Shown here one piece after another: positions 1-50,466 of a stretch of DNA of 64,000 nt (the first letter of the stretch is position 1; each line of letters opens with the position of its first letter). A program made the translations under genes and the position numbers. Below the pieces are notes generated by a model. That model did not search any database, had not been told where the DNA came from, and saw nothing but the letters and a program-made list of their open reading frames with translations. Source of the stretch: Allochromatium tepidum (GTDB taxonomy: Bacteria; Pseudomonadota; Gammaproteobacteria; Chromatiales; Chromatiaceae); contig NZ_AP024563.1 in assembly GCF_018409545.1 (NCBI RefSeq), positions 788,501-852,500 of the forward strand. The letters run 5' to 3'.

Positions 1-1
1 T

Positions 2-257
2 GAGCAACTGGAGTCCGGGTTGAGCAGTCCCAACCGAATGGCCGGTCAACACCGGCAACATGGGCCGTGGTCAGCCGTCGAAACCCAGCTTGCGCCATAA
101 AAATTGCCTCGGCGTTCATCCTGAACAGAGAACAACCTTGCGATTCGACGTTGACCCCGACCATGGAGCGTGAAACCTTCACGCTTGTAGATAACCTATC
201 TACAATGAAAAATTCTGATGAAAAATGAAGAAAAAATCAAGAATTGTTTTTTGCTCC
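2..257 (+). repeat. 256-bp dispersed repeat, copy A
   Basis: Bases 2-257 recur almost unchanged at 49823-50077. I count four substitutions and one 1-base deletion (a G of the GTGG near base 69 is missing in the other copy). Both copies have the same orientation and both end within the first codons of a gene: here 11 codons of the large membrane protein starting at 225, there the VanZ-like gene. Base 1 already differs from the other copy, so the left edge may be here. Internal dyads lie at 41-56, 114-126, 168-184 and 186-204. There is no recognisable transposase inside. It may be a MITE-like element or a duplicated upstream region. Confidence 0.93.
168..204 (+). promoter_or_regulatory. Tandem palindromes with identical ACC spacers (candidate double operator)
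   Basis: Two perfect inverted repeats sit one base apart. The first has 7-bp arms GCGTGAA/TTCACGC (168-174, 178-184). The second has 8-bp arms TGTAGATA/TATCTACA (186-193, 197-204). Both have the 3-base centre ACC, and the centres are 19 bp apart, close to two helical turns. They end about 20 bp before the start codon at 225, where a repressor or dimeric regulator would act. The copy at 49988-50024 is identical. The regulator is unknown; the pair could also fold as hairpins in single strands. Confidence 0.5.
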
Positions 258-3200
258 AGTCCCGGACGGTTTGCCGTATGGATGATTCTCCTGGTATTGG
301 CGCTGCCGCCGGCGCGTGCCGAGGCCCAAACTCTGTTCCCACCCGCCGAGTCCACGGCTCGATCGGGCAGCGACGAAAGTACCGGGATCGCGATCCCCAA
401 GTCACTCGAACCCTGGGTTCCCTGGGTGCTGGAGCAGGGACCGAACGGACGCGACCGGCGCGCCTGTCCGCTGGACGCGCGCGGCGTGAACCGGCTCTGC
501 GCCTGGCCGGGCCTGTTGCAGCTCGAACTGGACGCCGGGGGCGGCCGCTTCGAGCAGGTCTGGGAGCTGAAGGCCGAGGACTGGATCTCGCTGCCGGGCG
601 ACGTCGATCTCTGGCCGCAGGACGTGCGCGCCGATGACGTGCCACTGCCGGTCACGGCGCGCGACGGACGTCCGGCGGCCCAGCTACCCGCCGGCCGACA
701 TCGTCTGACCGGACGCTTCCAGTGGCGCGAGCGTCCCGAATCCCTCCCGCTGCCCCCCGAGACCGGACTCCTGACCCTGGCGCTCGATGGACGCGCACCG
801 ATCTCGCCGCGACTGGACCGGGACGCTCGGCTCTGGTTGCGCGATCCCGGCCAGACGCGCGCGGACGGGGAGGGCGATCATCTGCGGCTGGAGGTCTATC
901 GACGTATCGATGACGACCTGCCGCTGCGCATCCTGACCCGGCTCGAACTGGAGGTGTCCGGGCGCGCCCGCGAGATCCGGCTCGGCCCGGTCCTGCTGCC
1001 CGACGGCATCCCCTCGAATGTCGTCAGTCCCCTGCCGACCCGTCTGGAGCCGGATGGCACGCTGCGCGTCCAGGTGCGTCCCGGACGCTGGGTGCTGGAG
1101 GTCGCGAGCCACCATCCGGGCGCTGTGACCCGACTGGCGCGACCGGCCGATCTCGCCGCACCCTGGCCCGCGCGTGAGGTCTGGGCCTTCGCCGCCCAGC
1201 CCGAACGCCGCCGCGTCGAGCTGTCGGGCCTGGAGAGGCTCGACCCGAGCCAGACCGGGCTTCCGGGCGATTGGGCGCGGCTACCGGTCTATGCGGCCGG
1301 CCCAGGTGCGGTGCTCACATTCACCGAGCAGGGACGCGGCGACACGGACCCCGAACCGGATCGACTGCGGCTCGCGCGCGAGATCTGGCTCGACTTCGAC
1401 GGACAGGGCTATAGCGCGCGCGATCGTCTCGACGGCGATCTGACCCGAAGCCGGCGGCTGGAGGCCGCACCCGGTCTCGATCTGGGTCAGGCGCGGGTCG
1501 ACGGCGAGCCGGTGCTCATCACCCGGCTCGATGCCGACGCACCGCCCGGTGTCGAGGTGCGGCGCGGTCGCCTGGATCTGGTCGCCGACAGCCGTCTCGA
1601 CGCCAAATCCGACTGGATACCGGCCTCGGGCTGGTCGCTGGTGCTCGACGGCGCGACCAGTCGGCTGCATCTGCCGCCGGGCTGGGATCTGCTGGCCGTT
1701 TCCGGGGTCGACAATCGTCCCGACACCTGGCTGACGCGCTGGACGCTGCTCGATCTGTTCCTAGTGCTGATCCCGGCGCTCGGCGTCGGGCGTCTGTGGG
1801 GACTGGGCTGGGGTGCGCTGGCGCTCGTGACGCTGGCGCTCACCTGGCTCGAACCCGGTGCGCCGCGTCTGGTGTGGTTGCATCTGCTGGCCGCGGCTGC
1901 ATTGTTGCGTCTGCTGCCCGATCAGGGCGAATCGCGCGGGCTGGCGCGCTGGCGCACCTTCGTGCTCTGGTATCGGCGGCTGGCGGTGCTCGCGCTACTG
2001 GCGATCGGTCTGCCCTTCCTGGTCTCCGAGGTCCGCGGCGGACTCTATCCGCAGCTCGCCCAGCCGTACTGGAGTTCGACCGGCGGCGTGGCGGGCGCCC
2101 GAGCACCGGCGCCGACCTTCGCCTTCGAGAAGACGCTGACGGAGTCGGACGCACTCTTGCCTCAAGCCGAACCGGAGCCGGCACGTCGTGAAGGCAAGGT
2201 CTACGCCCCCTCATCGCTGGCGCGCCCAGCCGCGCCGCCACCGCCCCTGGAACGGCTCGACCCCAAGGCCCTGGTCCAGACCGGGCCGGGCATCCCGGAC
2301 TGGCAGTGGCGTCAGGTCGATCTGAGCTGGACCGGACCCGTCGGACCGAACGATGGGGCACGACTCTGGTGGCTGACGCCTGGCCGGCGTCTCGTGCTCG
2401 TATTCGTCGCCGGTCTGCTGCTGGTCGCGCTGGGACTGCGGCTATCGGATCTGAGTCTCTCGGGGGCGGATTTAAAACAGCGCTTGCAAAGTAAGTTTCG
2501 CGCCGGTGCTCCGCTGTCGCTGTTGGTGCCGGCTCTGATCCTGGGAGCGATGCTGACCCCACGTCCGACCCTGGCCGCCGACTTCCCGAGTCCGGCCCTC
2601 CTGGACGAACTGCGCACACGCCTGCTCGCGCCGCCCGAGTGTCTGCCCGAATGTCTGACGCTCGCCGGCCTCGTCCTGCGCGCCGAACCGGAGCGTTTGA
2701 CCCTGGATCTGACCCTGGACGCGGCGACGGCGATGGCCGCCGAGATCCTCGATGCCCGCTCGGGCTGGTCGCCGAGTTCGGTGATTCTCGATGGCGTCGT
2801 GCTGGAACGCCTGCGCCGCGACGGCGATGGACGTCTGCTGATCCCGCTCGATCCGGGCCGGCATCGGTTGCAGTTGACCGGCGCGCTCGGCGCCGAGACG
2901 CGCATCGACCTGCCGCTGGCGCTCGATCCGCGCCGGGTCGAGGTCGTCGCGGCCGACGGCTGGCGGGTCGAGGGCATCCGTACCGATGGTCGGCCTGGAC
3001 GCCAGATCCAACTGATCCGTCTGGCGAGCGCCGAGTCCGAGGGCGAGCGGCCACTGACCCAGGACGCCCTGCCGCCGCTGCTCCTGATCGAACGCCGGCT
3101 CGAATTCGGACTCGACTGGCGAGTCGAGACGCGGGTCAGTCGGCTCTCGGCGCCCGAGTTTCCCGCGCTGGTCCCAGTACCGCTGCTGCCGGGCGAGTCG

Positions 3201-4493
3201 GTCCAGACGGCGGCCCTCCAGGTCGAGGGCGGACAGGTCCGGGTCGCGCTCGCTCCGGGACAGACCGAGCTACGCTGGACCTCCAGCCTCAAACCCGTGG
3301 CCGAACTCGAATTGACGGCCGGCACGGATCCGCGTCTGACCGAATCCTGGTGGCTGGATCTCAGCCCGATCTGGCATCTGGACGGCATGGATCTGGCCCC
3401 GATCCATCATCGGGGCCAGGGCGAGCGCTGGCTGCCGCACTGGCGTCCGCTGCCCGGCGAGTCCCTGCGCCTACGGATCAGTCGTCCCGAGGGTGTGCCC
3501 GGTCCCACGTTGACGTTGGATCGCGTCGATGTCCAGGTCGAACCCGGACGGCGCGGCACGGACACGACCCTGACCCTGACGGCGCGGAGCACTCAGGGCG
3601 GCGTCTACAGGCTCCGGTTGCCCGAGGGCGCCGAGACCCGAACCCTGAGCATCGATGGCCGTACCCTTCCGCTGCCGAGCGGCCAGACGACATTGGTCGA
3701 GCTGCCGCTGGTGCCCGGCACTCAGGAGATGCTGGTCGGCTGGCGTCTGGAGTCACCGCTGACGGCGAGCTTCAGCCCGGCCGGCCCGGATCTGGGACAG
3801 ACCGCAGTCAATCTCACCCAGCGGCTACGTCTGCCCGATGACCGCTGGGTGCTGTTCGCCTGGGGTCCGGGGATCGGGCCGGCGGTGCTGTTCTGGGGGC
3901 TGTTCGTGGTACTGGTCGGCGTGGCGCTGGTGCTCGGGCGGGTGCGTCTGACGCCGCTGCGCCGGTACGACTGGCTGCTGCTCGGTCTGGGGCTGGCACT
4001 GTCCGAGGTCTGGGTGGCGCTGCTGATCGGCGGCTGGCTGTTCGCGCTCGGCTGGCGCCGGCGTCTGAATACGGCCGGCGTGCTCTGGTGGCGCTTCAAT
4101 CTGCTCCAGTTCGGGCTGGTGCTGCTCACGCTCCTGGCGCTGTCGGCCCTGATCGGCGCCGTCCGGCAGGGTCTGCTCGGCTATCCCGAGATGTGGATTC
4201 GCGGTCATGGCTCGAGTGCGACCCTGTTGAACTGGTATCAGGATCGCGGCGGTCCGCGTCTGCCCGAGGTCTGGGTGATCTCGGTGCCGCTGTGGGTCTA
4301 TCGCGCGCTCATGCTCGCCTGGGCGCTGTGGCTGGCTGTGCGGCTACTCGACTGGCTGCGCTGGGGCTGGCAGGGCTTCGCGCATCCGAGTCCTTGGCTG
4401 GATCGCCCCAAGCCGGGGGCCGGGCCGGATCCCGAATCCGAACCTTTGCGGCTCGACGGCTATGGCCGGGGCGACGCGGCCGGGCGCGGATGA
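225..4493 (+). CDS. Giant exported multi-TM protein of unknown function
   Basis: This is a protein of 1422 residues that I do not recognise. The N-terminus (basic KKKSR, hydrophobic core, then AEAQ) looks like a signal peptide. Residues about 40-500 are a soluble, beta-rich region full of Arg/Asp/Leu/Pro. Membrane segments cluster at about 505-610, 722-745 and 763-780; a second soluble block (780-1200) follows, and then five or six TM segments at about 1205-1390. The tail is hydrophilic. The first 11 codons lie inside the 256-bp repeat, so the native start may be ATG 282, which would still give a short signal peptide. Neither start has a good Shine-Dalgarno sequence. An envelope role is inferred only from topology. 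Confidence 0.85.
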   Translation: MKKKSRIVFCSSPGRFAVWMILLVLALPPARAEAQTLFPPAESTARSGSDESTGIAIPKSLEPWVPWVLEQGPNGRDRRACPLDARGVNRLCAWPGLLQLELDAGGGRFEQVWELKAEDWISLPGDVDLWPQDVRADDVPLPVTARDGRPAAQLPAGRHRLTGRFQWRERPESLPLPPETGLLTLALDGRAPISPRLDRDARLWLRDPGQTRADGEGDHLRLEVYRRIDDDLPLRILTRLELEVSGRAREIRLGPVLLPDGIPSNVVSPLPTRLEPDGTLRVQVRPGRWVLEVASHHPGAVTRLARPADLAAPWPAREVWAFAAQPERRRVELSGLERLDPSQTGLPGDWARLPVYAAGPGAVLTFTEQGRGDTDPEPDRLRLAREIWLDFDGQGYSARDRLDGDLTRSRRLEAAPGLDLGQARVDGEPVLITRLDADAPPGVEVRRGRLDLVADSRLDAKSDWIPASGWSLVLDGATSRLHLPPGWDLLAVSGVDNRPDTWLTRWTLLDLFLVLIPALGVGRLWGLGWGALALVTLALTWLEPGAPRLVWLHLLAAAALLRLLPDQGESRGLARWRTFVLWYRRLAVLALLAIGLPFLVSEVRGGLYPQLAQPYWSSTGGVAGARAPAPTFAFEKTLTESDALLPQAEPEPARREGKVYAPSSLARPAAPPPPLERLDPKALVQTGPGIPDWQWRQVDLSWTGPVGPNDGARLWWLTPGRRLVLVFVAGLLLVALGLRLSDLSLSGADLKQRLQSKFRAGAPLSLLVPALILGAMLTPRPTLAADFPSPALLDELRTRLLAPPECLPECLTLAGLVLRAEPERLTLDLTLDAATAMAAEILDARSGWSPSSVILDGVVLERLRRDGDGRLLIPLDPGRHRLQLTGALGAETRIDLPLALDPRRVEVVAADGWRVEGIRTDGRPGRQIQLIRLASAESEGERPLTQDALPPLLLIERRLEFGLDWRVETRVSRLSAPEFPALVPVPLLPGESVQTAALQVEGGQVRVALAPGQTELRWTSSLKPVAELELTAGTDPRLTESWWLDLSPIWHLDGMDLAPIHHRGQGERWLPHWRPLPGESLRLRISRPEGVPGPTLTLDRVDVQVEPGRRGTDTTLTLTARSTQGGVYRLRLPEGAETRTLSIDGRTLPLPSGQTTLVELPLVPGTQEMLVGWRLESPLTASFSPAGPDLGQTAVNLTQRLRLPDDRWVLFAWGPGIGPAVLFWGLFVVLVGVALVLGRVRLTPLRRYDWLLLGLGLALSEVWVALLIGGWLFALGWRRRLNTAGVLWWRFNLLQFGLVLLTLLALSALIGAVRQGLLGYPEMWIRGHGSSATLLNWYQDRGGPRLPEVWVISVPLWVYRALMLAWALWLAVRLLDWLRWGWQGFAHPSPWLDRPKPGAGPDPESEPLRLDGYGRGDAAGRG

Positions 4494-49600: not shown

Positions 49601-49822
49601 TCGATGGCGGCAATTTCGCGTGTTTGCTGTAGAGACCCCGGATACTACAATACCCCACTCAAGGCTGGGAGAATCCAACTCGTCACGTCCGGGTCTCCAT
49701 CACACACAACCGAGACACACCCGAGAAGCCCATGCCCTTCAATCTGTTCCTAAAAACCTAAACAAAGTTGCTTATGGTGGTTTTTAAGTGATTCGCTCTC
49801 CGTTGATAGCGCCCTGGTGGGC
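49601..49822. other. Gene-free remnant region before repeat copy B
   Basis: These 222 bases link the Uma2 tail to repeat copy B. They contain only a 9-codon open frame (MPFNLFLKT, about 49732-49761). The sequence is less GC-rich than its surroundings at 49745-49795. I see no gene, tRNA or terminal inverted repeat. Confidence 0.5.
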
Positions 49823-50077
49823 GAGCAACTGGAGTCCGGGTTGAGCAGTCCCAACCGAATGGCCGGTCAACACCGGCAACATGGGCCGTGTCAGCCGTCG
49901 AAACCCAGCTTGCGCCATAAAAATTGCCTCGGCGTTCATCCTGAACAGAGAACAACCTTGCGATTCGACGTTGACCCCGACCATGGAGCGTGAAACCTTC
50001 ACGCTTGTAGATAACCTATCTACAGTGGAAAATCCTGATGAAAAATGAAGAAAAAATCAAGAACTGTTTTTTGCTCC
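49823..50077 (+). repeat. 256-bp dispersed repeat, copy B
   Basis: This is nearly identical to 2-257, in the same orientation, 49.8 kb apart. Differences are one missing G in the GTGG near 49890 and four transitions near the 3' end. The right edge (TTTTTTGCTCC) again lies inside a coding start, this time of the VanZ-like gene. The left flank contains only decayed genes, as expected for an insertion-prone site. Confidence 0.93.
49988..50024 (+). promoter_or_regulatory. Tandem palindromes, copy B
   Basis: The same two dyads with ACC centres as in copy A (49988-50004 and 50006-50024) lie 14 bases before ATG 50038. They are unchanged although bases just downstream differ between copies, which hints at selection or recent duplication. 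Confidence 0.5.
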
Positions 50078-50466
50078 TCGTACCCCTCTATCGCGTCGGT
50101 TTGATACTCTGCCTGATGGCCACGCTCTATCTGGCCCTGACGCCCGTTCAGTCATCGTTCGGACTCGGCTACGACAAGGCCGATCATCTGCCGGCCTTCC
50201 TGGTCATGGCCTGGATGGCCGACGGCGGCTGGCCGGGACGCGAGCGGGCCTGGAAGCGCGCAGGATGGCTGCTGTGCTACGCGCTGTTCCTCGAATCCTT
50301 GCAGCACGAGCTGCCCTATCGCGACTTCTCCTGGTTCGATCTGCCGGCCGACCTGCTGGGGCCGGCGCTCTATTCGGGACTCAAGTGGCGCTTTCCCCAG
50401 TGGAAGGTCTTTCCACGCACCCCATCTCAGCCACAACCGCTCCCCCAAGCCAATGGAGACACTTGA
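50038..50466 (+). CDS. VanZ-like membrane protein
   Basis: This is a 142-residue protein with about four TM segments and VanZ-like features: an early hydrophobic helix (VGLILCLMATLYLAL), DKADHLPAFLVMAW (the conserved D-K-x-x-H), and SLQHELPYRDFSWFDLPADLLG. The first 13 codons (MKNEEKIKNCFLL) come from the repeat. Without them the gene could start at ATG 50116, but that would cut TM1. The frame used is not the frame used by the gene at 225. It lies next to a TauD-like gene. Function is unknown. Confidence 0.8.
   Translation: MKNEEKIKNCFLLLVPLYRVGLILCLMATLYLALTPVQSSFGLGYDKADHLPAFLVMAWMADGGWPGRERAWKRAGWLLCYALFLESLQHELPYRDFSWFDLPADLLGPALYSGLKWRFPQWKVFPRTPSQPQPLPQANGDT

Follow-up and report, generated by a model that had tools for sequence, protein, structure and literature searches.

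A protein-free IS607-type element of Allochromatium tepidum carrying a conserved structured RNA that probably represents a TnpB guide-RNA scaffold

Two near-identical stretches of the Allochromatium tepidum genome, separated by 49.6 kb, were found to be copies of a dispersed element of the IS607 family that contains no protein gene and that is occupied almost entirely by a conserved RNA located on the strand encoding TnpB in the related full-length transposons. The whole of the evidence indicates that this element probably carries a TnpB guide-RNA (reRNA/ωRNA) scaffold; in trans, TnpA would move the element and TnpB would use its RNA. What the alignments directly show is the conserved RNA, from which we infer both the transcription of the element and its use by TnpB.

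In the window (the whole stretch of 64,000 nucleotides that was analysed), positions 2-257 and 49823-50077 lie in the same orientation and share 251 identities, with four mismatches and one gap, as reported in the preliminary description. The 256-bp block first noted is the inner part of a larger unit, an element of 330 bp. Copy 1 occupies positions 1..253 (-) of the window (C1:788424-788753, 330 bp), with 77 bp of its right end located beyond the left edge of the window; copy 2 (49744..50073, (-); C1:838244-838573) is complete, with 330 bp aligned over positions 1-330. The last four bases of the repeat, CTCC, belong to the host target, which reads GGAG on the opposite strand, and include its 2-bp core; they form the left-end flank of both copies (254..257 and 50074..50077, both (-)), i.e., a target with an AG core and a putative TnpB TAM. 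The genome of A. tepidum (3.38 Mb, two contigs) harbors nine long copies besides shorter matches; contig 1 carries seven of the long copies and contig 2 the other two. Six of the nine align over positions 1-330; one aligns over 11-330, has an internal duplication at its left end and is 343 bp long in total; one aligns over 1-283 and carries another right-end type; the last one aligns over 55-330 and has a different sequence at the left end. At L003:1383-1513(+), a contig-2 copy adjoins a sequence that resembles the right end of an IS200/IS605 element, together with an HgcC match below the gathering threshold. The second right-end type (ending ATTCGGAGCAG) is common to one small element (L005, C1:655770) and one tnpB element (L011, C1:2759812), which suggests that right ends have been exchanged.

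Terminal inverted repeats, the classical mark of MITEs, were not found in the element, whose sole inverted pair of at least 10 nt is internal (49896-49907/49959-49970). The MITE-like nature proposed for the repeat is nevertheless borne out by the dispersion of the copies over both contigs, by the existence of a parent transposon and by empty sites in relatives, while nine dispersed copies with clean ends speak against an upstream region copied by recombination; the search of this genome and of its relatives disclosed many copies and empty sites rather than only two copies embedded in a larger duplication. The sites orthologous to the two window insertions are about 437 kb apart in genome G103 and on separate contigs in G124, an arrangement that has no bearing on excision. 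Recombination between the two direct copies, leading to the excision of the intervening 49.6 kb, is a possible candidate event.

The parents of the element are to be sought among five larger elements residing in the same genome. The right end (RE, the last 114 bp) matches four of the five at 94-100% over at least 113 bp, and the fifth, in which the right end is of the other type, matches at 88% over 217-283; the left 23 bp (LE) match three of them at 92%, a match that is weak when taken alone (E 0.28) and that falls at the expected places. The three larger elements having both ends (2082 bp as cut here) encode a TnpA composed of a MerR part plus a resolvase (209 aa in the one that was translated) and a TnpB of 465 aa; the remaining two lack LE and contain at most a tnpA remnant, and in one of them tnpB is broken. 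According to NCBIfam, TnpA matches NF033518 (IS607 transposase) with 222.8 bits (cut-off 110) and TnpB matches NF040570 (guided TnpB) with 104.9 bits (cut-off 100). The parent TnpB can be aligned with Cas12f and TnpB-type proteins of solved structure across the acidic motifs GVDKGY, AAEDL and DADQN, which we take to be the RuvC triad; its zinc-ribbon region contains fewer cysteines than that of the solved proteins, and its relatives in the PDB are distant, the best being 9nzq (Cas12f, E 3.5e-7). An IS200/IS605 (Y1) origin, first guessed from the TnpB right end, was ruled out because the parents carry a serine recombinase. The 330-bp block is a non-autonomous IS607-family element, that is, a MITE in the wide sense. 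Several IS605/IS607 groups coexist in the two contigs of A. tepidum, in which 22 TnpB-domain and six Y1-transposase matches were retrieved.

According to the available text of PMC6188088 and PMC10711439, IS607 elements have neither terminal repeats nor target duplication and recombine at a shared dinucleotide, which is GG in IS607 itself and in ISXfa1. A GG core was not found in the elements analysed here, whose ends read host-GG-AG/C...AAC-AG/host: the dinucleotide common to both junctions is AG, preceded by G (GGAG/AGAG). Of the 11 elements of A. tepidum, 10 have GGAG as their left flank and the remaining one has AGAG; in Thiorhodospira sibirica, GGAG and AGAG occur in 30 and 8, respectively, of the 38 readable copies (two of the 40 copies having no readable left end). 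The joined flanks of ten insertions (seven small elements and three IS607 transposons) were compared with eight genomes of the genus, A. tepidum included, and gap-free empty sites were retrieved in relatives for seven of them (4/7 small elements and 3/3 IS607), with no target duplication beyond the core dinucleotide at any of these seven. The empty site of copy 1 in G124 is identical around the junction, with 262/262 positions aligned at 95%. The site of copy 2 (L002) is covered at 73% in one relative, and in two others the match reaches only 12-13 bases past the junction; for the L005 insertion, one flank only was recovered. At the L004 site, the interval between the flanks is about 70 bp longer in genomes G124, G140, G103 and G073 than in A. 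tepidum. The L004 copy (C1:1071488-1071817) splits a GGDEF gene into pieces that correspond to positions 27-55 and 82-161 of the profile.

On the tnpB strand, the conserved RNA runs as far as the right end, beyond which a variable flank is found; in T. sibirica, 38 of 38 flanks are different from one another. In copy 2 it extends from a hairpin, referred to as P1, to the right end (49744..50023, (-)), and in copy 1 it occupies positions 1..203 (-), its 3' part being located outside the window; it is delimited by covariation and would correspond to the guide-RNA scaffold. RNAalifold predicted 66 pairs on the alignment of 15 copies, from which the structure itself was derived, and 26 of these pairs are compensated, against 13.5±2.3 in shuffled alignments (0/500) and 5-7 in slid ones, with 96.5% of the cells paired. 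With the addition of another family (17 rows, reduced to 16 distinct ones), 31 of 54 pairs are compensated, against 17.2±2.1 in shuffled (0/500) and 5-10 in slid alignments, a count that leans towards the model to which this alignment was fitted. In the same 16 rows, further pair types are not above the shuffles (397/500 as high), helix 4 is only 82.5% paired, and helices 1 and 7, which were not seen in the tnpB elements, have 5/7 and 5/6 compensated pairs, respectively. Copy 2 alone (49744-50025) folds 4.5 standard deviations below its shuffles (z -4.5). Folding is more favourable for the tnpB strand (-54.7, with a covariation term of 6.4) than for the other one (-43.8, with 3.4), and the ratio of G-U to A-C pairs is 75:9 on the tnpB strand, where the fold itself favours G-U, and 34:14 on the other strand in its own fold.

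Hairpin P1 (helix 1; 50007..50023, (-), in copy 2) was not seen in the tnpB elements, where pairing at the matching place is poor. Upstream of it, a weak promoter-like site (TTGATT-N17-CAGGAT; 50032..50060, (-)) ends 8 nt before P1; its score, computed on the identical left end of L003, is not above that of the shuffles. The position of the site recurs in other lineages, the best promoter-like site ending 6-9 nt before P1 in seven of eight sequences (not all of them independent) vs. 32-55 of 500 shuffles each. The search of Rfam with nine loci (seven with the element and two with tnpB, E up to 5) gave four hits, none of which falls wholly within an element. The HgcC hit in L003 (RF00062, 30.6 bits, gathering 50) reaches no further than the initial bases of the left end, which is also touched by PreQ1 in L066 (E 2), and RAGATH-33 in L065 (E 1.6) is located away from the RNA; in G114, some 50 nt separate the right end of a copy from a HEARO RNA situated beyond it on the same strand (L075:1127-1405(-); RF02033, 83.6 bits, gathering 83). 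An IStron or a group I intron was ruled out, since no Rfam match to one was retrieved.

The element is not confined to A. tepidum. At the family level, 14 of 146 genomes, A. tepidum included, match it partly or wholly (tnpB right ends counted), with full-length copies at 86-91% in G004, G119 and G098 and more diverged copies at 72-83% over part of the length. A covariance model built on the 5' 201 positions gave scores above 100 bits in 8 of the 210 genomes that represent the order and in 3 of 369 genomes of the class sample (A. tepidum, G325 and G440); in the phylum sample (398 genomes) the RNA was found in A. tepidum only and in none of the other 397. Among the matches of the model below 100 bits (19-79) are truncated copies as well as right ends of tnpB. 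Since the searches at the family, order, class and phylum levels score 5 to 11 candidates per genome, the copy numbers are lower bounds. A pattern representing the RNA core retrieved 60 stretches from a collection of 84,980 species, all of them in purple sulfur bacteria and Achromatium (T. sibirica, Candidatus Achromatium palustre, Chromatium okenii, Rhabdochromatium marinum, Thiocystis violacea and a Halochromatium), and no match in viral contigs; the RNA is present in 60/60 of these stretches, with 62 matches of 169-236 bits, 40 of which in T. sibirica. Relatives of the IS607 TnpB (E up to 1e-10) occur in 16 of the 19 genomes checked. G147, a genome 88% complete, has the RNA and no TnpB match; in G031 TnpB is represented solely by a 45% relative, and its locus yielded no right-end motif.

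A structure of the same kind is embedded in the tnpB gene of the full-length transposons. The 3' 114 nt of the element are common to the TnpB-encoding elements; upstream of RE, weak hits within the reading frame of tnpB were obtained with the 5' part of the model, used with filters off in one search of 34 kb (L133, 14.9 bits; L140, 6.0 bits), and these scored 22.2 and 7.9 bits, respectively, when just 200-base stretches were given. The correspondence of the 5' domain, weak in sequence, would be based mainly on helix order and covariation. The alignment of 23 tnpB 3' ends revealed the same helix order as in the small element: the first shared hairpin (loop GGU, stem CCGUCGA/UCGACGG and compensated variants) is followed by a long-range stem, by a stem around UCGCAAA, by an inner hairpin and then by the shared 3' helices. 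In this structure, assembled by hand from two folds of one alignment, 16 of 63 pairs are compensated (11 among the 44 of the 5' part), against 8.7±1.7 in shuffled (0/500) and 1-9 in slid alignments; no compensated pair was found in the inner hairpin (helix 4). The alignment (A3) takes in two G385 fragments, which are themselves deletion elements, and leaves out the empty L104 row; the covarying tnpB loci in it include L012:1422-1782(-) and L140:2541-2892(+), and the variants of the hairpin encode RRGS followed by T, A or S. The same helix order, together with the covariation, implies that the tnpB message holds a conserved structure starting about 350-360 nt before the right end and lying mostly in coding sequence.

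In the small element, a short hairpin (helix 7) takes the place of about 100 nt of the tnpB coding linker, and P1 stands in front. Genome G385, belonging to another family, harbors a separate protein-free IS607-type deletion element (L115:1289-1703(+)), with a second copy at the corresponding place of L120 on the other strand and with different flanks; here tnpB is joined to a different left end, the junction being situated about 17 nt upstream of the same hairpin, and the frame is open for the last 113 or so codons of tnpB. The fact that two separate deletions have kept the same segment suggests that it represents a functional unit.

It might be argued that the element is an ends-only MITE, whose RNA is a leftover of the right end of the parent, and that it moves through TnpA without any use by TnpB. 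This is an unlikely explanation, even though it has precedents: the available text of PMC7290912 describes a PATE-like derivative of IS605 in which LE and RE are retained along with the final 58 nt of tnpB, and tnpA alone is required for IS607 transposition (PMC6188088). A neutral relic, however, would be expected to lose its pairing, whereas helices 1 and 7, which were seen in the protein-free lineage only, still covary; their covariation among the small elements implies that selection continued within that lineage after the loss of the proteins.

The relationship between the element and TnpB was assessed also from the right ends. The tails of the elements and those of the co-resident TnpB genes have a mean identity of 0.87, vs. 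0.77 in shuffled pairings (0/10000), a difference that is not corrected for kinship. The own TnpB is the best right-end match in five of nine genomes; in G004, G119, G098 and T. sibirica it is not the closest one, ranking 4, 13, 4 and 6 of 14, respectively. The comparison used 5 of the 40 elements of T. sibirica, 4 of the 11 of G052, 3 of the 4 full ones of G004 and 4 of the 6 of G325, and one of the two G440 copies gave no tail. On the other side of the element, the GGAG flank is close to AGGAG, the TAM found in 18 of 22 strains for the other IS607 TnpBs tested in PMC11061315 (as far as its available text goes). The reRNA of ISXfa1, an IS607 element, was determined by small-RNA sequencing as a molecule of about 150 nt that includes a fixed right-flank nucleotide (PMC10711439, available text); since it is much shorter than the conserved RNA described here, the 5' domain of the latter may be located outside the mature guide RNA. 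By analogy with the IS607 reRNAs (PMC10711439, PMC11061315), the 20 nt of host sequence adjoining the right end of copy 2 (49724..49743, (-)) would represent its guide.

On this basis, the following mechanism can be proposed. TnpA would move the element in trans; the element would be transcribed from a promoter in its left end, and the transcript would run past the right end into the host DNA, so that a host stretch would become the guide. The TnpB produced by full-length elements might then use the RNA of the small element to cut empty sites, in which GGAG lies beside the guide, and the repair following the cut would allow the element to be kept or recopied. At the two window sites the insertion interrupted codons 3 and 5, and ATGs on the outward strand may supply new starts. 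We lean, with some hesitation, towards an even broader picture, in which these are mobile guide-RNA genes, i.e., RNA-only selfish elements that borrow TnpA for their mobility and TnpB for their persistence and for which each insertion creates a guide against its own empty site, the stretch of about 360 nt in tnpB being dual-coding, with a frame that is also a long guide-RNA scaffold.

A different role for the same RNA, namely binding and limiting TnpB, or acting on the tnpB mRNA, without any guiding to empty sites, appears improbable. The 40 copies of T. sibirica could indeed titrate TnpB, and P1 is specific to the element; the order of right end, core and flank that a guide needs is kept in the copies that were read, which argues weakly against this role, since insertion alone would give the same arrangement.

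The effects on the host genes can be followed at the two window insertions. The first gene (225..4493, (+)) is cut from its native start (MSG..., outside the window), and its start would now be an ATG of the element, giving MKKKSRIVFC followed by the native SSPGRF...; in G124 the same gene reads MSGSSPGRF... across the empty site, codon 3 being the one interrupted by the element. The second gene (50038..50466, (+)) would start at an element ATG in the other frame, giving MKNEEKIKNCFL followed by the native LLVPLY...; its product, called VanZ-like in the preliminary description, had no Pfam match. Its predicted empty site reads MPFNLLVPLY..., with codon 5 interrupted, and a remnant of the native start is still present at 49732..49761 (+), consisting of MPFN, five element-encoded codons and a stop. 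Both native starts now run into stops, reading MSGCS-stop in the first gene and MPFNLFLKT-stop in the second. The outward strand of LE contains two ATGs in different frames with no stop downstream, and each of the window genes is in frame with one of them; the open frames suggest that both genes may use these ATGs as new starts. Another insertion has split a MazG gene (a match to MazG of Pfam was found in the intact G103 gene and in the 5' piece of A. tepidum), and the 3' part of this gene is likewise open from an element ATG. The L008 copy (C1:1343234-1343553) immediately precedes a glutathione peroxidase gene and lies at a GGAG that has the appearance of the ribosome-binding site of this gene.

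It had been proposed that the repeat could be a mobile promoter, and a cassette donating promoters or start codons and activating the downstream genes would agree with two window genes that begin inside the element in two frames, as well as with the open 3' part of mazG. As the main function of the element this is nonetheless very improbable, because other copies split the GGDEF and mazG genes or face the glutathione peroxidase gene with their right end, and because the conserved part is an RNA on the strand opposite to the window genes. The location of the copies at gene starts can be accounted for by the insertion at codons 3 and 5 and by the survival of the frame, and hence gives no evidence of a promoter; the contribution of the element to the two window genes, judged from their reading frames, would be the start codon. 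That the structure acts as DNA, or as an architecture bound by TnpA, and not as RNA is hardly credible, since, although hairpins near the ends matter for the Y1 transposases of IS200/IS605 (PMC7290912), the IS607 TnpA is a serine recombinase that inserts double-stranded DNA (PMC10711439; both sources in their available text), and the better folding of the tnpB strand and its excess of G-U over A-C pairs point to RNA.

The element shares with the IS607 transposons ISXfa1 and ISFba1 the serine TnpA, the TnpB, the dinucleotide core, the TAM-like left flank and an RNA reaching the right end; it differs from them in having no protein genes and an AG rather than a GG core. Its conserved RNA is also longer, about 280 nt in the element and about 360 nt in tnpB, compared with the reRNA of about 150 nt of ISXfa1 and the 187-nt scaffold of ISFba1, as given in the available accounts. 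Guide RNAs located apart from the nuclease gene, or fused to other RNAs, occur in the stand-alone ωRNA loci of IscB/TnpB systems and in IStrons; unlike these, the RNA described here constitutes nearly the whole transposon, and no intron match was found in Rfam. The PATE-like IS200/IS605 derivative of Halanaerobium (PMC7290912, available text) also consists of LE joined to the tnpB 3' end and RE, with no intact gene; in contrast to it, the present element has IS607 ends, many copies, a distribution over several families and a covarying RNA that is kept without a coding frame. The reRNAs derived from RAGATH-18 are structured guide RNAs of IS607 TnpBs, as is proposed for the RNA described here, and the TAM of these TnpBs is AGGAG; in the available text of PMC11061315 they lie outside the tnpB frame, whereas the RNA of the parent overlaps the frame here, and no Rfam hit falls wholly inside the element in the seven loci containing it. 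Ends-only elements of the TnpB family were already known (PMC7290912, available text), and the guide-RNA-only design is unusually clear in the present case; no description of an IS607 element made solely of guide RNA was found in the open-licence literature, in the text available from it.

The window insertions provide an example of how the start codons of host genes can be reset by such elements. TnpB is regarded as the ancestor of Cas12, and the family described here makes the trans action of TnpB guide RNAs on behalf of TnpB-less elements directly testable: 40 natural copies were found in a single cultured bacterium, T. sibirica, and each of the 38 readable ones has its own flank. Moreover, the structure of the small element, being freed from the coding constraint, suggests which parts of the tnpB message may represent the RNA scaffold.
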